From the NCBI GenBank assembly GCA_028287805.1, contig JAQBOY010000255.1:1-34589 (forward strand): DNA of 34,589 nucleotides, in the 5' to 3' direction. Under the pieces are notes generated by a model. The model did no database searches, was not told where the DNA came from, and saw nothing but the letters and a program-made list of their open reading frames with translations. Below are positions 22,058 through 33,668 of the stretch, one piece after another. This DNA is from Mucilaginibacter sp. GTDB lineage: Bacteria > Bacteroidota > Bacteroidia > Sphingobacteriales > Sphingobacteriaceae. Each line of letters begins with the position of its first letter. Position 1 is the first letter of the stretch. The position numbers and the translations under genes are program-made.

Positions 22058-23434
22058 TTATTTTTTAAATGGTAAACGGTATTTTCTTAATTTTTGATAG
22101 ATATATCCTCTGCGCCTCATTGATTCTGATAATGATGTTTCATCAGCATAAAGCTTATCCAAAATTTTAGGAACAGCTATCCGCTGAGCACTGTAAATGC
22201 CCGAATGGCCGCTAAAAAAATAGGCGGTAAAACAAGCTACAGCAAACAAAAGCACATGCTCACCACCAAAAAGTTCAACCCCCATAAAGGTGCAGGCCAA
22301 TGGCGTATTAGTGGCCCCGGCAAAAACAGCAATAAAACCCAATGCTGCAAAAAGGCTTACGGGGGCATTTAACAATCCCGATAAGGTATTACCTAAAGTT
22401 GCACCAATATAAAACAATGGGGTTACTTCACCGCCTTTAAAACCTGTTCCAATGGTGATAGTGGTATACAACATTTTCCAGAACCAACTCCAGGTGTGGG
22501 ACCCGCCCGAATGAAAAGCCGAAGGAATAGTTACAGCACCTGGATATTCAGCATCTACGCCAAGACTTAAATAATCGGGCTTACCAATAAGCAGGGTAAG
22601 TCCAATAATTAGTAATCCGCCAAAAATTGGAATCATCCATTTTGATTTAAATATTCTAACACAGGTGTTTTTAATTTTATGTGCCATAATGGCAAAAGTA
22701 TAGCTTGCTATACCAAACGCAGCCGACGAAATAATAACCTTGCCCAGCAGCAGCACATCTGTATGAAAAAATTCCGGCATTAAATAAGATGAATGAGGTA
22801 ATGCATCAATATGATACTGTACATGTGATATATGCCAGGCACTCACTGTTATATCGCCTACAACAGCTGCTATCAAAGCCGGCAATAAAGCATCATACTG
22901 AATTTTGCCAATAGTTAAAACCTCCATGGCAAAAATTGCGCCGGTAACGGGTGTTCCGAACACAGCTCCAAATCCGGCTGCAATACCCGCCGTAAGGATC
23001 ATGCGCATATCCACCTCTTTTAATTTAAACCATCCGCCAAACATGGCAGCAATACTTCCGCCAATTTGTACGGCGGTTCCTTCCCGCCCTGCAGAACCGC
23101 CAAATAAATGTGTTATGATGGTAGTGATCAGAATGATTGGAGCCATTCTTTTGGGTACCCCCCCGCCCTCCTCATGAATTTCTTCCATAATAAGGTTGTT
23201 GCCTTTTTCTGAAGACTTACCTATGTATTGATAGATAAAATGAATAAGCAAGCCTGCTAACGGAAGCAAAAACAATAGCCACTTATGGGCAAAGCGAAAA
23301 TGAATGGCAAAGGTGAGCAGCCATAAAAAAAAAGCAACTACACTCCCGATAGTTAAGGCAACGGGAATGATCAATAAAGTCCAGCGGACTAAATGTTTAA
23401 TAATTGAATAATGTTCGGATTTTAATTTTTTCAC
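22058..23434 (-). CDS. CLC-family anion transporter, probable fluoride/proton antiporter (CLC-F type)
   Basis: An inner-membrane CLC protein of about 458 residues. The gating-glutamate motif reads GGSAGREGTAVQIGG (in place of GREGP), the first selectivity region reads GGGVPKRMAP rather than GSGIPE, and the GxFxP region is GGEVTP. The Arg-Met-Ala-Pro and Gly-Gly-Glu variants fit my recollection of the F-/H+ antiporter branch, which carries a Met near the anion site and an extra conserved Glu. The fluoride riboswitch just upstream strongly supports fluoride export, which protects the cell from fluoride toxicity. No ATG is available: the likely starts are GTG at 23434 (product begins Met-Lys-Lys) or TTG at 23440, two codons earlier. 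The gene stands alone, followed by the efflux promoter region. Confidence 0.85.
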   Translation of the reverse strand: MKKLKSEHYSIIKHLVRWTLLIIPVALTIGSVVAFFLWLLTFAIHFRFAHKWLLFLLPLAGLLIHFIYQYIGKSSEKGNNLIMEEIHEEGGGVPKRMAPIILITTIITHLFGGSAGREGTAVQIGGSIAAMFGGWFKLKEVDMRMILTAGIAAGFGAVFGTPVTGAIFAMEVLTIGKIQYDALLPALIAAVVGDITVSAWHISHVQYHIDALPHSSYLMPEFFHTDVLLLGKVIISSAAFGIASYTFAIMAHKIKNTCVRIFKSKWMIPIFGGLLIIGLTLLIGKPDYLSLGVDAEYPGAVTIPSAFHSGGSHTWSWFWKMLYTTITIGTGFKGGEVTPLFYIGATLGNTLSGLLNAPVSLFAALGFIAVFAGATNTPLACTFMGVELFGGEHVLLFAVACFTAYFFSGHSGIYSAQRIAVPKILDKLYADETSLSESMRRRGYIYQKLRKYRLPFKK

Positions 23435-23475
23435 CTGCAAATAGTTAATACCGTGTAAATACGATAGTTTAATTT

Positions 23476-23529
23476 GTAGGCGCCATCAGCAAATGCGGTT
23501 TTTAAAAGGAAGACACCATTTCCCTCCGC
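23476..23529 (-). promoter_or_regulatory. Fluoride riboswitch (crcB motif) in the CLC-F leader
   Basis: Read on the minus strand, the element has the class hallmarks in order: a P1 hairpin with arms GGAGG (23527-23523) and CTTCC (23512-23508); AATGG inside the loop; AACCGC; then GCTGATGGCGCCTAC, close to the conserved GCUGAUG...CUAC 3' end. A pseudoknot GGTGT (23517-23513) with GCGCC (23483-23479) pairs as five consecutive G-C/G-U pairs. The short P3 is GC/GC around ATTT. It ends 41 nt before the GTG start, so ligand binding is expected to switch expression on in fluoride (family knowledge). Confidence 0.87.
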
Positions 23530-23576
23530 AATATAGATAATTTATTATATACACAAAAACCCTGATAGTTATAAAA

Positions 23577-25727: not shown

Positions 25728-26165
25728 ATGCTATCAAAAAAAACCAAATATGCTATTAAAGCATTAGTTATACTTGGAAAAAACAAGGATAAACCTCCAA
25801 TGCAAATTTCAAAAATTGCCGAATCGGAGAGCATCCCTAAAAAATTCCTTGAACAAATACTGTTAGATCTTCGTAACGCCGGTTTTTTGTATAGTAAAAA
25901 AGGAGCTGGCGGCGGTTATAGTTTAAATAAGGATCCCAAAGATATTTTTTTGGTTAACGTTATGCGCATTACCGACGGGCCAATTGCTATGGTACCCTGT
26001 GCCAGCTTGAATTTTTATCATAAATGTGATGAATGCCCCCAGGAAACCACCTGCGGTATAAGAGATGTATTTATTGAAGTACGGGATGCTTCCTTAAAGA
26101 TTTTAACAGAAACCAGTATTGCAGATATTATAGCAAGAGAAAATACGCTGATATTTAATGGTTAA
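25728..26165 (+). CDS. Rrf2-family transcriptional regulator, likely controlling the sulfur operon
   Basis: A 145-residue winged-helix regulator. The family signature runs from LSKKTKYAIKALVIL (2-16) through the recognition part IPKKFLEQILLDLRNAGFLYSKKGAGGGYSL (36-65), typical of IscR, NsrR and CymR. Four cysteines (C91, C100, C103, C109) lie in the loop before the dimerisation helix, the region that carries the Fe-S cluster in IscR and NsrR, so this protein may sense Fe-S status, redox or a sulfur metabolite. It is encoded directly upstream of the sulfate-assimilation operon on the same strand, 263 bp away, like the Bacillus cysteine regulator CymR in role. Autoregulation and control of the downstream promoter are inferences. 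Confidence 0.88.
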   Translation: MLSKKTKYAIKALVILGKNKDKPPMQISKIAESESIPKKFLEQILLDLRNAGFLYSKKGAGGGYSLNKDPKDIFLVNVMRITDGPIAMVPCASLNFYHKCDECPQETTCGIRDVFIEVRDASLKILTETSIADIIARENTLIFNG

Positions 26166-26250
26166 TCCTCTTTGATATTTAATGGTTAATCATTTGAATG
26201 TTAAAAGTCGTTATTTTTAATATTAATCTACCAATTCCGTATACTATATA

Positions 26251-26265
26251 TATCTTTGTACAAAG
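26251..26265 (+). promoter_or_regulatory. Promoter -7 box overlapped by a 12-bp palindrome (candidate Rrf2 operator)
   Basis: TATCTTTG at 26251-26258 fits TAnnTTTG. The perfect palindrome CTTTGTACAAAG at 26254-26265 overlaps it and the expected start site, an ideal position for a repressor. This would give a leader of about 165 nt before the sulfite reductase gene. Confidence 0.5.
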
Positions 26266-26348
26266 TTTGTAAAACTATATTTAAACAAATGGGTTATTTA
26301 TATTTTACAAAATATTGACGCATGCTGCATAAGCAGAATTGATATAAT

Positions 26349-26407
26349 GGGTATATTTAAAAAATATATACCCCTTTAGCCTGGCCTGGCCAAAGGGGTC
26401 TTTTTTT
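26349..26407 (+). promoter_or_regulatory. Attenuator-like leader with mutually exclusive hairpins before the sulfate-reduction operon
   Basis: Hairpin A pairs GGGTATAT (26349-26356) with ATATACCC (26366-26373). Hairpin B pairs CCCCTTT (26371-26377) with AAAGGGG (26392-26398), extended by GCC (26379-26381) with GGC (26388-26390), and is followed by TC and T7 (26399-26407). The CCC at 26371-26373 is used by both, so A prevents B. B looks like an intrinsic terminator 21 bp before the sulfite reductase ATG. A small CTGC/GCAG hairpin (26325-26336) lies upstream. The ligand or trigger is unknown. Confidence 0.6.
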
Positions 26408-26428
26408 AACAACAAACTAATAAATAAT

Positions 26429-28522
26429 ATGCAAAGCTTCAGAACAGAGCTGGAAAACCCAATTGTAGAGAAAGATATTATTGATCTTGAAAAAAAGATC
26501 AGGGATTTTCGTGAAGGTAAAATACATGATGAAAAATTCAGAAGCCTGCGATTGGCAAGAGGGGTTTATGGGCAACGACAGCCCGGCGTACAAATGGTAC
26601 GTATTAAACTGCCTTTTGGAAAAGTAACTTTTAAACAACTGTTGCGCATTGCCGACATTTCAGATAAATATGCCAGCCATAATTTGCATTTAACAACCCG
26701 GCAGGACATCCAGATACACTATGTAAGTCTGGATAGAACTCCCCAGTTATGGGCAGAATTGGCGCAGGATGATATTACTTTACGTGAAGCTTGCGGAAAT
26801 ACGGTAAGGAACGTTACATCTTCTCCTACATCAGGTATTGATCCGTTAGAGCCTTTTGATGTATCACCTTATGCACATGCTACTTTTGAATATTTTTTGC
26901 GTAACCCTATATGCCAGGAAATGGGGCGTAAATTTAAAATAGCATTTTCATCAAGCGAAGCTGATACTGCATTCTCCTATATCCATGATGTAGGCTTGAT
27001 ACCCAAAATAAACAGCAATAATGAACGTGGCTTTAAGGTAATGTTAGGCGGTGGTTTGGGCGCACAACCCATATTGGCAAGCATTGTTGAGGAGTTTTTA
27101 CCCGAAGATCAGCTAATTCCCTACATAGAATCTATTATAAGGGTATTTGACCGTTATGGCGAACGCAATAACCGTAACAAAGCCCGCATGAAATACTTAA
27201 TACAAAAAATTGGGCTTGATGAGGTTTTACGCTTAGCTAAAATAGAGCGTATTGCCAATAAAGTTAAATCATATACCGTTAACAGGGATACTATTGCTTT
27301 ACCTTTTATTCCTGAACTTACCCAATACCCTGCCGTTGAAATTACCAATCCATTACATTACGAGCAATGGTTAGCTACTAATGTTTTCGAACAAAAGCAA
27401 CAGGGATTTTATGGTGTTTATATTAAAGTGCCGGTTGGCGACATTGCTACTGATAATGCACGCAAATTGGTAGATGCTATTAAACCTTATGTTGCAGATG
27501 AGATAAGGATAACTCAAAACCAGGGTTTACTACTAAAATTTGCTAAAAAAGAGGCTTTACCTGCTTTATTTAAAGGTTTAGCAGAACTTGGATTTGCCGA
27601 GCCCGGATTTGACAGCGTTGCCGATGTAACCACCTGCCCCGGTACAGATACCTGCAACCTGGGTATCTCCAACAGTATGACACTTTCGCGTGTTTTAGAA
27701 GAGGTGATCTATGCTGAATATGAAGACCTGATTTATAACCGAGATATTAAAATTAAAATAAGCGGCTGCATGAACTCATGCGGACAACATGGTTTAGCTC
27801 ATATTGGCTTTCATGGTAGTTCACTAAAAGCCGGAACTAAAGTATTGCCATCTGTACAAGTACTGTTAGGTGGCGGAACGGTTGGTAATGGGGTTGGCCG
27901 CGCAGCAGAAAAAGTTATAAAAGTACCTGCAAAACGTGCCACTCACGTTTTAAGAGCAGTATTGGATAATTATAAACAACATTCAATAGAAGATGAAACC
28001 TTCCATAATTATTATGACAGGCAGGGTAAGGATTATTTTTACCAATTGTTAAAGCCATTGGCTGACCTGACTACCCTGACAGATGATGAATTTGTTGATT
28101 GGGGCCATGAAGAAACATTTGCAACCGCTATTGGTGTAGGTGAATGCGCAGGTGTAGTAATTGACCTGGTAGCTACCCTTCTTTATGAATCAGAAGAAAA
28201 AATGGGCTGGGCAAATGAATCTTATAACAACGGTGCCTGGTCTGATGCCATCTATCATTCTTACAATGTGTTTATCAGCTCAGCAAAAGCTTTGTTATTA
28301 GATAAAGGCGTTAACAGCAGTACACAGGCAGGAATTATTAAGGAATTTGATGCCAATTATGTAGAAACAGGCCTGATCGATTTAAATGGAACATTCAACG
28401 ACCTGGTATTACAGATCAACAAAAATGAACCATCTGAAGAATTTGCAACAACATACAAAGCTTTGGCTGTTGATTTTTTAAATACAGTTAAAACAAAAAG
28501 AGAGGAAGTGCTGCAATCATGA
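26429..28522 (+). CDS. Assimilatory sulfite (nitrite/sulfite-type) reductase hemoprotein with C-terminal HEPN-like domain
   Basis: A 697-residue siroheme/4Fe-4S reductase that reduces sulfite to sulfide with six electrons. It has the duplicated ferredoxin-like/siroheme core: LHLTTRQDIQIHYV (87-99), ACGNTVRNVT (121-130), and the cluster cysteines C403 and C409 (CPGTDTC) plus C447 and C451 (CMNSC). Genes for siroheme synthesis, APS reductase and ATP sulfurylase follow, so sulfite rather than nitrite is the likely substrate. Residues from about 577 to 690 form an extra helical domain (DAIYHSYNVFISSAKALLL and the TQAGIIKEFDANYVETG segment) that looks like HEPN and is not needed for reductase chemistry. 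No flavoprotein partner is adjacent; electrons probably come from ferredoxin. Its last codons overlap the next gene by ATGA. Confidence 0.92.
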   Translation: MQSFRTELENPIVEKDIIDLEKKIRDFREGKIHDEKFRSLRLARGVYGQRQPGVQMVRIKLPFGKVTFKQLLRIADISDKYASHNLHLTTRQDIQIHYVSLDRTPQLWAELAQDDITLREACGNTVRNVTSSPTSGIDPLEPFDVSPYAHATFEYFLRNPICQEMGRKFKIAFSSSEADTAFSYIHDVGLIPKINSNNERGFKVMLGGGLGAQPILASIVEEFLPEDQLIPYIESIIRVFDRYGERNNRNKARMKYLIQKIGLDEVLRLAKIERIANKVKSYTVNRDTIALPFIPELTQYPAVEITNPLHYEQWLATNVFEQKQQGFYGVYIKVPVGDIATDNARKLVDAIKPYVADEIRITQNQGLLLKFAKKEALPALFKGLAELGFAEPGFDSVADVTTCPGTDTCNLGISNSMTLSRVLEEVIYAEYEDLIYNRDIKIKISGCMNSCGQHGLAHIGFHGSSLKAGTKVLPSVQVLLGGGTVGNGVGRAAEKVIKVPAKRATHVLRAVLDNYKQHSIEDETFHNYYDRQGKDYFYQLLKPLADLTTLTDDEFVDWGHEETFATAIGVGECAGVVIDLVATLLYESEEKMGWANESYNNGAWSDAIYHSYNVFISSAKALLLDKGVNSSTQAGIIKEFDANYVETGLIDLNGTFNDLVLQINKNEPSEEFATTYKALAVDFLNTVKTKREEVLQS

Positions 28523-29310
28523 TGCAAGAGCAAACGGGTAAAATAATTAAAAAACCTACAATTACATTGGTTGGAGCCGGTCCGGGTGATGCGGAATTGA
28601 TAACCTTAAAAGCAATTAAAGCCTTAAATACAGCTGATGTTGTTTTATATGATGCCCTGGTTAATGAAGAACTACTGGAACATGCGTCTGAAAATGCGGT
28701 TAAAGTATATGTAGGTAAACGTTCAGGCGACCACTCTTATTCACAGGAAACTGTAAACAAGTTAATGGTTGATTATGCCATTAACTATGGTCATGTTGTT
28801 CGCCTTAAAGGCGGCGATCCTTTTGTTTTTGGACGAGGTTTTGAGGAATTGGAGTATGCCGCGTCTTACCATATCCCTGCACAGGTTATTCCCGGCATAT
28901 CAAGCGCTATAGCAGTACCCGAATTGCTGCAGATCCCTGTAACCCACCGCGGTTTAAGTGAAAGTTTCTGGGTGGTAACCGGAACTACGGCAGATGGTAA
29001 AATATCAAATGATTTATATGAAGCTGCCCGTTCAAAGGCAACTGTAGTTGTGTTAATGGGTATTCATAAACTTGCCGAAATTGTAGAAATATTTAAAAAC
29101 GCGGGTAAGCATACTTTGCCGGCAGCGGCAATTCAAAGCGGTTCAACTATTAATGAAAAGGTTGCTGTAGGTATGGTAGAAACCATAGTTGAGCATGTTA
29201 AGGAAAACAATATCACCTCTCCTGCTCTGTTGATTTTTGGCGAGGTGGTAACTTTACATTCAAGGTTTAAATCTACCAGTGAAATTCATGACGCTATTGG
29301 CACAAAATAA
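28519..29310 (+). CDS. cobA: Uroporphyrinogen-III C-methyltransferase (SUMT)
   Basis: A 263-residue SAM-dependent enzyme that methylates uroporphyrinogen III twice to precorrin-2, the first step toward siroheme. Family motifs are GAGPGDAELITLKA (19-32), DALVNEELL (45-53), VGKRSGDHS (65-73), RLKGGDPFVFGRG (95-107), PVTHRG near 140 and TLPAAAIQSGS near 200. Its ATG overlaps the stop of the sulfite reductase gene, tying cofactor supply to the enzyme that uses it. A second ATG immediately follows the first. Confidence 0.93.
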   Translation: MMQEQTGKIIKKPTITLVGAGPGDAELITLKAIKALNTADVVLYDALVNEELLEHASENAVKVYVGKRSGDHSYSQETVNKLMVDYAINYGHVVRLKGGDPFVFGRGFEELEYAASYHIPAQVIPGISSAIAVPELLQIPVTHRGLSESFWVVTGTTADGKISNDLYEAARSKATVVVLMGIHKLAEIVEIFKNAGKHTLPAAAIQSGSTINEKVAVGMVETIVEHVKENNITSPALLIFGEVVTLHSRFKSTSEIHDAIGTK

Positions 29311-30799
29311 TGATCAATTATCCGTTCAGGATGAAAAAACAACGGGGGGTAATCAACTATTCCCTGTTTTTTTAAAGCTGAATGAATTGCATACAGTGCT
29401 TATTGGCGCAGGTAATGTTGGTTTAGAAAAACTGACAGCTATCTTAAACAACAGCCGGCATGCAAGGGTAACTGTTATTGCTGAAAATGTTATCCCTGAA
29501 GTTTATCTTTTAGCCGATAAATTCAAGGGAATAAATATTATACAAAAATCATTTACTGAGAATGACCTGGATACTGCCGATATTGTAATTGCCGCTACTG
29601 ATAATAGTGAACTGAACAATTGTATCAGGCAGGCAGCCCATCAACGTAAATTATTAATTAACGTTGCTGACAAACCGGAACTTTGCGATTTTTACCTCGG
29701 TTCTATTGTACAGAAAGGTGATCTTAAAATAGGTATTTCTACCAACGGAAAATCTCCTACAGTAGCTAAAAGGCTTAAAGAGATACTTAATGAAAATATT
29801 CCTGACGAGCTCAATACCACACTTCACCAAATGAGCATACTGCGTAATTCTTTAAATGGTGATTTCGCTTATAAAGTAAAAAAATTAAACCAGATAACCT
29901 CCGTACTGGTTGAGCCTAAAACTCAACCCATAAAGAATTTTAAATGGCTGTTATGGGGTTCCATTATTGCATCCATTGTTATTGCGGCAACAGCACTATG
30001 GTTTAATGAACCCGAATTTAAAAGCTATGTACAAAATATAAACCCAATATTCTACTACTTTTTGGGCGCAGGTTTTGTATTAGCCCTTATAGATGGCGCT
30101 ATAGGTATGTCATACGGTGTTACCGCAACCACTTTTTCGTTGTCTATGGGTGTGCCCCCTGCAATTGCAAGTATGGGTGTTCACTTATCAGAAATACTAA
30201 GTAACGGTATAGCCGGCTGGATGCATTACCGCATGGGTAATATAAACTGGAAATTATTTAAACTACTGCTAATTCCGGGTATTATAGGTGCTGTAACAGG
30301 TGCTTATATTTTGTCATCATTAGAGCATTATAGCCAATATTCCAAACCTTTCGTATCTTTATATACACTTATTTTAGGATTGGTTATTTTATCAAAAGCC
30401 TTTAAGTTAAAACAAAAAAAGGCTGATAATAAAATTAAAAGAATAGGATTATTGGGTTTAGGCGGCGGTTTTATTGATGCTGTTGGCGGTGGTGGCTGGG
30501 GCTCAATAGTATTATCTACATTAATAGCTGGTGGCCGTAACCCGCGTTTCTCATTAGGTACCGTAAAATTATCCCGGTTTTTTATCGCTTTAATGAGTTC
30601 GCTAACATTTATCACCATGTTAAATGGCGCACGTTGGGAGAGTGTTTCCGGGTTAGTTTTGGGCAGCGCTTTAGCATCGCCTATAGCAGCCAAAATATCC
30701 AATAAAATATCAACCAGGTCTATTATGGTTGCTGTTGCAGTAATTGTAATATTAATAAGCCTAAAAAGTATTGTTAATTTCTTATTGAAGATTATATAA
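29288..30799 (+). CDS. Fusion: precorrin-2 dehydrogenase/ferrochelatase (Met8/CysG-N type) + TSUP (TauE/SafE) permease
   Basis: About 503 residues with two units (numbers counted from the GTG at 29279; subtract 3 for the ATG at 29288). Residues 28-220 are siroheme-synthase N-terminal type: Rossmann VLIGAGNVGLEK (40-51), TADIVIAATDNSELN, the catalytic-type aspartate D131 in NVADKPELCDF, and ISTNGKSPTVAKRLKE with S159. This unit oxidises precorrin-2 and inserts iron. From about 222 a hydrophobic TSUP transporter begins (KWLLWGSIIASIVIAA, then ALIDGAIGMSYGVTATTFSLSMGVPPAIASMGVHLSEILSNG and LGLGGGFIDAVGGGGWGSIV), likely moving sulfate, sulfite or another oxyanion. The enzyme part would face the cytoplasm. 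The frame is continuous, with no sign of a missed stop. It overlaps the SUMT gene by 23 bp and the next gene by 1 bp. The GTG at 29279 is an alternative start. Confidence 0.88.
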   Translation: MTLLAQNNDQLSVQDEKTTGGNQLFPVFLKLNELHTVLIGAGNVGLEKLTAILNNSRHARVTVIAENVIPEVYLLADKFKGINIIQKSFTENDLDTADIVIAATDNSELNNCIRQAAHQRKLLINVADKPELCDFYLGSIVQKGDLKIGISTNGKSPTVAKRLKEILNENIPDELNTTLHQMSILRNSLNGDFAYKVKKLNQITSVLVEPKTQPIKNFKWLLWGSIIASIVIAATALWFNEPEFKSYVQNINPIFYYFLGAGFVLALIDGAIGMSYGVTATTFSLSMGVPPAIASMGVHLSEILSNGIAGWMHYRMGNINWKLFKLLLIPGIIGAVTGAYILSSLEHYSQYSKPFVSLYTLILGLVILSKAFKLKQKKADNKIKRIGLLGLGGGFIDAVGGGGWGSIVLSTLIAGGRNPRFSLGTVKLSRFFIALMSSLTFITMLNGARWESVSGLVLGSALASPIAAKISNKISTRSIMVAVAVIVILISLKSIVNFLLKII

Positions 30800-31512
30800 T
30801 GATTGAATTAGAAAATATAAAACAACAAACCGACGGATTGGAGCCGGTAGAAGCTTTAAAGCTTTTAGCCAATCGGTTTCCAGGGCAAATTGTATTTTCA
30901 ACAAGCTTTGGATGGGAAGATCAGGCTATTACGCATATGATTTTTTCTAATCAGCTACCCATAAAAATATTTACATTAGAAACAGGCAGGTTGTTTCCTG
31001 AAACATATTATGTTTGGAACCGTACGATGGAAATATACGGCCAGCCAATACATGCCTATTATCCAAAGAATGAACCATTAGAGCAAATGGTGAATGCCAA
31101 AGGCCCTAACAGCTTTTATGAATCGGTTGACAATCGTAAGGAGTGCTGTGGCATACGAAAGGTTGAACCATTAAGCAGGGCATTAGCAGGCAATCAATGC
31201 TGGATAACCGGTATTCGTGCCGAACAATCAGTTAACCGGCAGTTTATGCATAATGTAGAATGGGATGAGCAGCACCAGTTAATTAAATTTCACCCCATTT
31301 TTAATTGGACGCTTGATGACGTAAAAGATTATATCAAAAAAAACAATATACCTTATAATACACTTCATGACAGGGGCTTTCCAAGTATTGGTTGCCTGCC
31401 TTGCACACGTGCGGTACAACCGGGCGAAGATTTTAGGGCCGGGCGCTGGTGGTGGGAAGATCAATCAAAAAAAGAATGTGGTCTGCATGAATTAATAATT
31501 GATAAACAATGA
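30799..31512 (+). CDS. cysH: Phosphoadenylyl/adenylyl-sulfate reductase, Fe-S type
   Basis: A 237-residue enzyme that reduces activated sulfate to sulfite using thioredoxin. The PP-loop-like FSTSFGWEDQ (33-42), the cluster-type cysteines C116 C117 (ECCGIRKVEPL), C199 and C202 (SIGCLPCT), and the C-terminal ECGLH with catalytic C227 are present. The double-cysteine motif is the mark of 4Fe-4S APS reductases, and there is no APS kinase gene in the operon, so adenylyl sulfate is the likely substrate. Start and stop are coupled to its neighbours (TAATG, ATGA). Confidence 0.94.
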   Translation: MIELENIKQQTDGLEPVEALKLLANRFPGQIVFSTSFGWEDQAITHMIFSNQLPIKIFTLETGRLFPETYYVWNRTMEIYGQPIHAYYPKNEPLEQMVNAKGPNSFYESVDNRKECCGIRKVEPLSRALAGNQCWITGIRAEQSVNRQFMHNVEWDEQHQLIKFHPIFNWTLDDVKDYIKKNNIPYNTLHDRGFPSIGCLPCTRAVQPGEDFRAGRWWWEDQSKKECGLHELIIDKQ

Positions 31513-32414
31513 GTAACAATCACCTGGATTATTTAGATGAGCTGGAGGCGGAAGCCATATATATTTTACGGGAAGTAGCCGGCCAGTTTGAACGTCCTGC
31601 ACTTTTATTTTCGGGCGGTAAGGATTCCATTACATTAGTGCGCTTAGCCGAAAAGGCTTTCCGCCCCGGTAAATTCCCGTTCCCGTTAGTGCATATTGAC
31701 ACTGGTCATAATTTTGTTGAAACGATCGAGTATCGTGATGCTATGATCAAGCGTATAAATGAAAAATTAATCATTGGTCACGTTCAGGACTCGATAGATG
31801 AAGGAAAAGTGATTGAACAAAAAGGTAAAAATGCCAGCCGTAACGCTTTGCAAACGGTAACCTTATTGGATACTATAGCCAAACATAAGTTTGATGCCTG
31901 TATAGGCGGCGCACGCCGTGACGAAGAAAAGGCAAGAGCTAAAGAACGTATTTTTTCTGTAAGAGATGAATTTGGCCAGTGGGACCCTAAACGTCAGCGT
32001 CCGGAATTGTGGAATATTTACAATGGTAAAATTCACAAAGGCGAAAATGTAAGAGTATTTCCTATCAGTAACTGGACCGAATTGGATGTATGGAATTACA
32101 TCAGACGGGAAAAGATAGACCTGCCATCAATTTATTTTGCGCATGAGCGGGAAACCATTGTACGCAACGGCCAGTTAATGGCTGCTTCTCCATTTTTAAA
32201 TATGGACGAAGAAGATATTATTGAGCGTCGTAACGTACGCTTCCGCACAGTTGGAGATATGACCTGTACAGCGGCAGTTGAATCTGAAGCTTATCATTTA
32301 GATGATATCATCAATGAAATAAGTGCTTCTAAAATAAGCGAACGTGGCGCGCGTATGGATGATAAAGTATCCGAAGCAGCGATGGAAGACCGTAAGAAAG
32401 GGGGTTATTTTTAA
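31509..32414 (+). CDS. cysD: Sulfate adenylyltransferase subunit 2 (small subunit)
   Basis: A 301-residue ATP-pyrophosphatase-fold subunit that forms adenylyl sulfate from ATP and sulfate together with CysN. The PP-loop SGGKDS is at 35-40, followed by FPLVHIDTGHNFVET, the GGARRDEEKARAKERIFS motif near 133-150 and the RERE-type C-terminal region GDMTCTAAVESEA. It begins in the stop codon of cysH (ATGA) and ends 3 bp before cysN. Confidence 0.95.
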   Translation: MSNNHLDYLDELEAEAIYILREVAGQFERPALLFSGGKDSITLVRLAEKAFRPGKFPFPLVHIDTGHNFVETIEYRDAMIKRINEKLIIGHVQDSIDEGKVIEQKGKNASRNALQTVTLLDTIAKHKFDACIGGARRDEEKARAKERIFSVRDEFGQWDPKRQRPELWNIYNGKIHKGENVRVFPISNWTELDVWNYIRREKIDLPSIYFAHERETIVRNGQLMAASPFLNMDEEDIIERRNVRFRTVGDMTCTAAVESEAYHLDDIINEISASKISERGARMDDKVSEAAMEDRKKGGYF

Positions 32415-32417
32415 TTT

Positions 32418-33668
32418 ATGGATATATTAAAATTTATTACTGCAGGTAGTGTTGATGATGGTAAAAGTACATTGATTGGTCGTTTGTTGTATGACAGCGA
32501 TTCTATATTAGCCGATCAGTTAGAAGCCTTACATTCTTCCAATCGAAAAAATGACGATGGTTCTATTGACCTCGCTATATTAACTGATGGTTTAAAGGCT
32601 GAGCGTGAACAGGGAATTACTATTGATGTAGCTTACAAGTATTTTCAAACAGAAAAGCGTAAGTTTATTATTGCCGATACTCCCGGGCATATACAGTATA
32701 CCCGTAACATGGTAACCGGAGCCTCAAATGCTAATTTAGCTATCATTTTAATTGATGCCCGTAAAGGGGTTATTGAGCAAACCATACGTCACTCCTACCT
32801 GGTATCGCTATTAGGTATACAACAGGTCGTAGTTTGTGTTAATAAAATGGATATGGTTAATTATAGCCAGGAGGTATATGATCAAATCATTACTGATTAT
32901 CAAAAATTAGCTGCAAAAGTTGATCTTAAAAATGTTTATTACATTCCGGTGAGTGCGCTTAAAGGCGATAATATTGTTCACCCATCTTCAAATATCAGCT
33001 GGTATAAAGGAGAAAGCTTATTACCATATCTTGAAAATATTGAACTTGCTGTTGATAATAGCACCGCTCATGCCCGCTTCCCGGTACAATGGGTAATACG
33101 CCCTCAAACTGAAGACCTGCATGATTATCGCGGTTATGCTGGCCGGGTGTCCAGTGGCTCATTTAAAGTAAATGATAAAGTAACTGTTCTTCCTTCAGGA
33201 TTTACTTCGTCTATTTCTAAAATAGAATTGTTAGATGAAGAACCCCAGGAAGCATTGGCAGGCATGTCTGTAACTGTTCATTTAAAAGATGATATTGATA
33301 TAAGCCGGGGGGATGTATTAGTAAACAGCAATTACCAGCCCGAAGTATCTCAATTGATCGAAGCTGATTTGTGCTGGATGGACACACGTGCCCTGGATAC
33401 TTCCCATACCTATTTTATACAGCATAACAGCAAGGTTACCCGTTGCAAGATCCAGGAGGTATTACATAAGGTAAACATCAATACGCTTGAAAAAGAATAT
33501 AATGAAGAGTTTAAGCTAAACGATATTGGCCGTATTATTATAAAAACTGCCGAGCCGTTGGCTTTTGACCTGTATCAAAACAACAAAGCTAATGGCGGAG
33601 CGATTATTATTGATAGTCGCACTAATTTAACAGTAGGCGCCTTAATGCTGCGTGCCGTAGCTGATTAA
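32418..33668 (+). CDS. cysN: Sulfate adenylyltransferase subunit 1 (GTPase)
   Basis: A 416-residue EF-Tu-like GTPase that drives adenylyl-sulfate formation by CysD. The G1 motif is GSVDDGKS (10-17), G3 is DTPGH (87-91), G4 is NKMD (142-145), and EF-Tu-like barrel domains 2 and 3 follow. There is no fused APS kinase (CysC) domain, so this is the CysN-only form, in agreement with an APS reductase route. It is the last gene of the operon. Confidence 0.95.
   Translation: MDILKFITAGSVDDGKSTLIGRLLYDSDSILADQLEALHSSNRKNDDGSIDLAILTDGLKAEREQGITIDVAYKYFQTEKRKFIIADTPGHIQYTRNMVTGASNANLAIILIDARKGVIEQTIRHSYLVSLLGIQQVVVCVNKMDMVNYSQEVYDQIITDYQKLAAKVDLKNVYYIPVSALKGDNIVHPSSNISWYKGESLLPYLENIELAVDNSTAHARFPVQWVIRPQTEDLHDYRGYAGRVSSGSFKVNDKVTVLPSGFTSSISKIELLDEEPQEALAGMSVTVHLKDDIDISRGDVLVNSNYQPEVSQLIEADLCWMDTRALDTSHTYFIQHNSKVTRCKIQEVLHKVNINTLEKEYNEEFKLNDIGRIIIKTAEPLAFDLYQNNKANGGAIIIDSRTNLTVGALMLRAVAD

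Follow-up and report, generated by a model that had tools for sequence, protein, structure and literature searches.

The classical attenuators of the trp, his and leu operons have a leader peptide with codons for the product amino acid, a stop codon near one arm of an antiterminator and mutually exclusive hairpins. Leader peptides with Cys codons have been reported from Mycobacterium, Propionibacterium acnes and Bifidobacterium, and the same study found no conserved hairpins able to act as terminators in the mycobacterial cys leaders (PMC1262725, relevant passages). Leaderless short ORFs of mycobacteria with polycysteine tracts have been linked to cysteine-responsive attenuation (Canestrari et al. 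2020, as cited in passages of PMC9031893 and PMC13236596). Another described element is uORFC-8-2, an upstream ORF of Rhodobacterales cysS that begins with ATG, has two tandem Cys codons at approximately codons 14-15 and is accompanied by a terminator-like U run; ribosome-mediated attenuation was proposed in its description (PMC8632094). In the Bacteroidota, leader-peptide attenuators have been suggested for amino-acid biosynthesis operons of Flavobacterium psychrophilum (PMC9723704, cis-regulatory RNA section). Attenuators have also been suggested in Bacteroides, with no cysteine operon named in the available text of PMC7366714, and the available portions of PMC2965389 and PMC4833913 name no Bacteroidota cysteine operon under attenuation. 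Searches of an open-access library gave us no cysteine attenuator from the Bacteroidota; subscription papers, for example a 2010 attenuation survey cited in PMC4833913, could contain one.

Here we describe a leader located in front of a sulfate-assimilation operon of Mucilaginibacter sp., within a stretch of 34,589 nucleotides that we call the window. Comparison with related loci makes it very likely that the element is a ribosome-mediated cysteine-codon transcription attenuator that guards this operon.

The operon, its promoter and the leader hairpins

The features that surround and make up the leader, all on the forward strand, are as follows:

25728-26165, forward: Rrf2-family regulator gene (Pfam PF02082, E 1.7e-37), directly upstream of the leader
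26228-26258, forward: promoter block CTACCAATTCCGTATACTATATATATCTTTG, composed of a conserved probable regulator site and the Bacteroidota -7 box TATCTTTG (26251-26258)
26263-26428, forward: predicted 5' leader of about 166 nt, its start placed by the -7 box spacing given in the promoter text of PMC9723704
26349-26356, forward: antiterminator 5' arm GGGTATAT
26366-26373, forward: antiterminator 3' arm ATATACCC, overlapping the terminator
26370-26399, forward: intrinsic terminator hairpin, ACCCCTTT..AAAGGGGT
26401-26407, forward: T7 tract that completes the terminator; the ATG at 26429 is 21 nt further on
26429-28522, forward: sulfite/nitrite reductase-type gene, first in the operon (Pfam NIR_SIR, NIR_SIR_ferr)
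28519-33668, forward: remaining operon, identified by family search as a tetrapyrrole methylase, a siroheme-synthase domain fused to TauE, two PAPS-reductase-type proteins and a CysN-type GTPase

From these families we take the names cysH, cysD and cysN for genes in the rest of the operon. In mapped promoters of Flavobacterium psychrophilum the sequence TAnnTTTG is located at -12 to -5 (PMC9723704, promoter text), and when this spacing is applied to the -7 box TATCTTTG the window transcript would start at about 26263. In 138 of 147 related loci the promoter block, which ends in a TATATTTG-type -7 box, agrees with a typed 30-base reference in at least 18 of the 30 places. The block just 5' of the -7 box (CTACYANTTCCNTATA, 26228-26250) is kept in most of the 147 loci. 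Its conservation would seem to exceed the apparent need of a plain Bacteroidota promoter, and it is perhaps a putative binding site for the neighboring Rrf2 regulator. Elsewhere in the window there is an ordinary fluoride riboswitch (RF01734, 47.5 bits) at 23470-23532 on the reverse strand, directly before a reverse-strand ORF at 22058-23440 that by its look is presumably a ClC-type channel.

An original prediction made from the window alone had placed two hairpins in this leader, and folding recovers both of them, at 26349-26373 and 26370-26399. Specifically, hairpin 1 pairs 26349-26356 with 26366-26373 over 8 bp (-8.9 kcal/mol, z -2.5) and hairpin 2 reaches -17.8 kcal/mol (z -2.6). The second hairpin is the intrinsic terminator that it was said to be, with its T7 tract at the distance from the ATG that had been given, and a leader length put at roughly 165 nt agrees with the 166 nt counted from the predicted start. 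It was also proposed that a shared CCC makes the two hairpins exclude each other. The overlap is there, and consists of the CCC plus A26370, but exclusion is only partial, since the minimum-energy fold of the leader contains the terminator together with the AU part of hairpin 1. The leader as a whole folds better than 200 of 200 shuffles (z -2.8), with the two hairpins taken jointly reaching only z -1.7 and being equaled by 10 of 200 shuffles. The case illustrates how a hairpin pair of a single genome can become readable only once its relatives are considered.

Leader peptides and paired hairpins among relatives

A DNA search with the window leader gave only the query itself as a strong match in its own genome, and at E 0.01 it matched 21 of 100 genus genomes, its own included, with all of the other matches weak. 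Because the leader DNA is too diverged, loci were collected by means of the position of the sulfite reductase gene; the leader family is found by its position before this gene and not by sequence similarity. A scan of genome contigs kept the best 80 loci, of which 79 had upstream sequence (L093 was dropped). The sulfite reductase gene is present in 142 of 149 genomes of the genus, the window's own included, and from these we used 29 with flanks and 60 more of the remainder. In total, 169 upstream regions were obtained with the window included, 147 of them distinct. The gene is also present in 100 of 121 genomes of the family and 60 of 247 of the class. The family set comprised 20 regions, 19 of them usable, from 17 other genera. 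The large Pedobacter-like genus g14 was excluded from it, being represented already, and some of its regions duplicate loci that had been collected in the first set (for example L210 and L075, or L212 and L110). The class set comprised 40 of the 52 matches outside the family and represents 20 other families of the Bacteroidia.

Leaders of at least 120 nt were observed in 129 of the 147 distinct loci. We defined a leader ORF as one that begins with ATG or GTG at most 25 nt from the box, has 10-40 codons and contains at least one Cys codon. Such an ORF is found in 118 of the 129 long leaders as compared to 14.9 in dinucleotide shuffles, which here and below ignore relatedness. ORFs with at least two Cys codons occur in 109 of the 129 (3.9 expected) and ORFs with adjacent Cys-Cys codons in 84 (0.54 expected), leaving 11 long leaders with no Cys ORF. 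As a control, the 170 nt upstream of the promoter contained Cys-Cys in ATG ORFs in 0 of 147 loci under a slightly different ORF rule. A short ORF with codons for the amino acid that the operon produces is, in other words, a feature of the relatives. All four spellings of the Cys-Cys pair are used among the 84 loci (TGC-TGT in 42, TGT-TGC in 19, TGT-TGT in 13 and TGC-TGC in 10), which indicates that it is the amino acid rather than the DNA that is kept. Note that a genome-wide search with a plain Cys-codon pattern for other Cys leaders was too unspecific, matching 20 of 20 genomes with 20 to 135 matches in each.

The leader ORFs have a median length of 23 codons (range 14 to 40) and in 108 of 118 cases start 4-14 nt after the box, with a spacing of exactly 4 nt in 50. 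Given that TAnnTTTG occupies -12 to -5 in Flavobacterium psychrophilum (PMC9723704, promoter text), a 4-nt spacing would put the ATG at +1, and leaders with this spacing are probably leaderless when judged by this other genus. Peptides this short are easily missed in annotation.

Met is clustered beside Cys in these peptides, accounting for 135 of the 678 residues within two places of a Cys versus 51 of 1577 residues elsewhere, and in the other families for 56 of 147 versus 31 of 445. In 35 of 83 leaders Met directly follows Cys-Cys. This clustering suggests that methionine supply may be read too. The Met enrichment is also what might be seen if the leader were an arrest peptide, in which thiols of the nascent chain sense sulfide, cysteine, metal or redox state inside the ribosome in place of codons sensing tRNA-Cys. 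However, beyond Cys and the neighboring Met the peptides differ strongly among families and the Cys runs vary from 1 to 5, and we regard an arrest peptide as improbable.

In regards to the second half of the element, an automated scan of the 131 leaders with a length of 100 nt or more identified an intrinsic terminator with a T-run, located ahead of the first gene, in 125; the calls are weak in a few loci (L032, L034, L068), and L149, where the hairpin was misassigned, was omitted from the terminator-arm sequestration and energy counts. A segment near the stop codon of the leader ORF pairs with the 5' arm of the terminator with a mean z of -1.66 in 114 loci, window included, only 47 of which have an antiterminator that individually beats 95% of shuffles. 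At least 4 nt of the terminator arm are sequestered in 113 of 116 loci versus 73.8 expected (folding z -1.7). In 98 of 113 relatives no more than 9 nt separate the start of the antiterminator 5' arm from the stop codon; relative to the last Cys codon, the arm begins 9 to 25 nt downstream. As a result of its location, the antiterminator of the relatives, which is exclusive with the terminator, could be covered by a ribosome positioned at the stop codon and not by one positioned at the Cys codons.

Evidence for both pairings comes from covariation. In 47 same-genus loci, which were selected because their stop codon coincides with a GG[C/T]T[G/A]T arm and compared using patterns that allowed only the observed letters, one position of the terminator arm pairs alternately with the antiterminator and with the terminator 3' arm; its letter varies and both pairings are kept. 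The combinations are G-C-G in 22 loci, A-T-A in 18, G-T-A in 6 and A-T-G in 1, and neither of the two possible A/C clashes occurs in any of the 47. For the 17 of these loci that are on the protein tree, 3 to 4 changes are needed. An alignment of the antiterminator helix (46 rows, 42 distinct) has 25 cells that changed on both sides, which 0 of 500 shuffles reach, as well as a covariation score of 0.273 versus 0.190 (0 of 500 shuffles) and 85.7% of cells paired versus at most 53.4% when slid. Two of the five covariation measures do not exceed the shuffles, namely double-change pairs (3, with 283 of 500 shuffles as high) and further pair types (9, with 447 of 500). Pairing also fails at the two outer positions of the helix, in 17 of 42 rows for one and in 22 of 41 for the other. 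In the terminator, all 46 of 46 rows have standard pairing at the eight pairs, with G-U counted as standard.

The relatives carry those defining features of a classical amino-acid attenuator that can be tested in sequence, and a response to cysteine is predicted. In the mechanism that we propose, transcription would start at the start codon of the short ORF itself or only a few nucleotides upstream of it, and the ORF would then be translated. Under a shortage of charged tRNA-Cys the ribosome would stall at the Cys codons, which are close to the end of the ORF. This would leave the arm by the stop codon free for pairing with the terminator 5' arm, and RNA polymerase would continue into the operon. 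With ample cysteine, the ribosome would proceed to the stop codon and cover this arm, such that the terminator would form and the operon would be off.

This comparison also bears on what had been proposed for the window. An attenuation element preceding the sulfate-reduction operon had been suggested, and this part is upheld, with the antiterminator/terminator pair conserved and covarying when the related leaders are aligned, which was the check that had been called for. The alternative offered with it was a riboswitch. A ligand-binding fold for SAM, O-acetylserine or sulfide, with the hairpin pair as its expression platform, would accord with a long, structured leader that has both a terminator and an antiterminator. 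However, no Rfam family matched at threshold when the window leader and 20 related loci were tested, the upstream half of the leader recurs in most relatives as an ORF with its frame and its Cys codons, and the conserved pairs that were found are near the stop codon and in the terminator. A riboswitch is very unlikely in our assessment; on sequence grounds the hairpins are the downstream half of a leader-peptide attenuator. Sub-threshold Rfam matches in the leader region (a trpB motif at 21.9 of 59 bits and a miRNA family at 14.9 of 110 bits) are at chance level. Among the triggers that had been listed cysteine fits, although as charged tRNA-Cys and not as a bound ligand. The leader peptide itself was invisible to this first reading because it is degenerate in the window genome.

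A constitutive terminator that simply limits read-through from the Rrf2 gene or the promoter, with the leader ORFs being incidental, would account for the strength of the terminator and for a window copy that has no Cys leader. It would not account for the excess of Cys-Cys leaders over the shuffles, for the antiterminator covariation or for the stop codon near the antiterminator arm, and we consider it extremely unlikely.

The cysteine leaders extend beyond the family. In the class set a Cys-Cys leader ORF is present in 20 of 40 loci, representing 12 of the 20 other families (1.64 expected), and runs of CCC and CCCC occur in 12 and 6 of the 40 loci, respectively (0.09 and 0.01 expected). In those 20 Cys-Cys loci an intrinsic terminator comes next after 26 of 27 leader ORFs. 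Among 26 attenuators of other families the antiterminators have a mean z of -2.85, with three that show no signal (z -0.2 to 0.9), and the antiterminator arm is often inside the last codons of the ORF. In 7 of these 20 Cys-Cys loci (L227, L229, L241, L243, L244, L247, L257) two units of poly-Cys leader ORF plus terminator occur in series in the 400 nt upstream of the gene. The other genera of the same family have Cys-Cys in only 2 of 19 loci (0.47 expected), indicating that the distribution is patchy.

The leader frame in the window

Two frames bear on the state of the leader peptide in the window:

26277-26342, forward: degenerate leader-peptide frame, ATA...ATG(26289)...TAT TGA CGC ATG CTG CAT AAG CAG AAT TGA
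26323-26328, forward: TGC TGC, two Cys codons in a frame without ATG, GTG or TTG

In an alignment with relatives, the counterpart of the degenerate frame in locus L036 is TAT TGT TGC ATG CAG GGC GAT AAT TGA, and the window codons at 26316-26321 (TGA CGC) occupy the place of the relatives' Cys-Cys. The block coding for Tyr-x-x-Met is identical to that of L036 at 10 of 12 nt, and to that of five others at 8 or 9 of 12. An in-frame ATA is located near the usual place of the start codon. We found no ATG or GTG near the window promoter, and no in-frame ATG, GTG or TTG, that leads to a Cys codon. Scored as a peptide against the relatives, the start-less TGC TGC frame, whose stop falls within the terminator, outperforms the collinear relic frame (26.0 versus 21.4), and because of this the route of decay is unsure. 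A frameshift as the sole cause, putting TGC TGC out of frame, is less favored, as collinear substitutions agree better with where the stop is located and with the Tyr and Met on either side, although the other frame has the higher score.

Judged from its letters, the window sensor is not intact under either reading of the frame. The window copy retains a promoter, an antiterminator and a terminator that overlap, and has no translatable leader ORF with Cys codons; it is probably a decayed attenuator. A ribosome that starts at the ATG at 26289 would finish translation at position 26316 (TGA), before it has advanced far enough to cover the antiterminator arm, and read-through would be favored. 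The energy balance was rejected as proof of decay, given that 9 of 116 Cys-leader loci have an equal or larger terminator advantage.

The broken frame might instead be an artifact of the assembly, a draft of 500 contigs and 84.9% completeness, and the living species might have an intact attenuator; this is the one genome of the species that was compared. However, the collinear differences are substitutions and not one indel, and nearer relatives have also lost Cys codons: L031 has lost both of the pair, with Gly-Leu there, and L113 and L126 have lost one each. We think an artifact unlikely, and keep to decay as the probable reading. A protein tree was built from 98 loci, of which 66 have Cys-Cys or two or more Cys, 8 a single Cys, 10 none and 14 short leaders. 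In it the window groups with local support of 81 with L115, which has no Cys, with L039, L056, L057 and L059, which have short leaders, and with L038, which was scored as Cys-Cys on an atypical ORF that has no terminator call. The group of the window is one of loci that have mostly lost the predicted sensor. Leaders shorter than 120 nt are present in 18 of the 147 loci (L039, L052, L056, L057, L059, L147, L184, L191 and ten others), and at least 6 or 7 changes are required to account for the 14 that the tree includes, which suggests several losses of the element.

More tentatively, assimilatory sulfate reduction may be gated widely in the Bacteroidia by leader peptides rich in both Cys and Met codons and encoded by leaderless or near-leaderless ORFs, often by two attenuators in series that would sense both sulfur amino acids and sharpen the response, with lineages such as that of the window losing the sensor before the terminator.

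Comparison with known attenuators

The Flavobacterium psychrophilum attenuators are from the same phylum and are also assigned to amino-acid biosynthesis operons, but no cysteine operon is named in the section of that paper on 5' cis-regulatory RNAs (PMC9723704). Like uORFC-8-2 as described in PMC8632094, the elements reported here combine an upstream ORF with tandem Cys codons, a terminator and proposed ribosome-mediated attenuation. Unlike uORFC-8-2, which in that description is found exclusively before cysteinyl-tRNA synthetase in alphaproteobacteria, the gene that follows here is of the sulfite reductase type and not cysS. Tandem copies go unmentioned in the relevant text of PMC8632094, and this comparison with the Bacteroidota elements is one of descriptions only. 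The polycysteine ORFs of mycobacteria, in the summaries cited above, share adjacent Cys codons, a short ORF that is leaderless (here probably leaderless or near-leaderless) and attenuation that would depend on ribosome speed. In contrast to the mycobacterial cys leaders as portrayed in PMC1262725, the Bacteroidota elements, from another phylum, possess both a terminator and an antiterminator.

A poly-Cys leader peptide would provide a simple, testable means of controlling cysteine synthesis in the Bacteroidota. Among the known systems, the trp, his and leu attenuators likewise have a leader peptide, a stop codon by the antiterminator arm and exclusive hairpins; they differ in that the codons here are for Cys, and perhaps Met, in front of a sulfate-assimilation operon in Bacteroidota. 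The predicted attenuator would add a further setting for control by Cys codons beside those of the Actinobacteria and Rhodobacterales, one with a covarying antiterminator, tandem copies and, in many species, a start codon that is apparently the first transcribed base.
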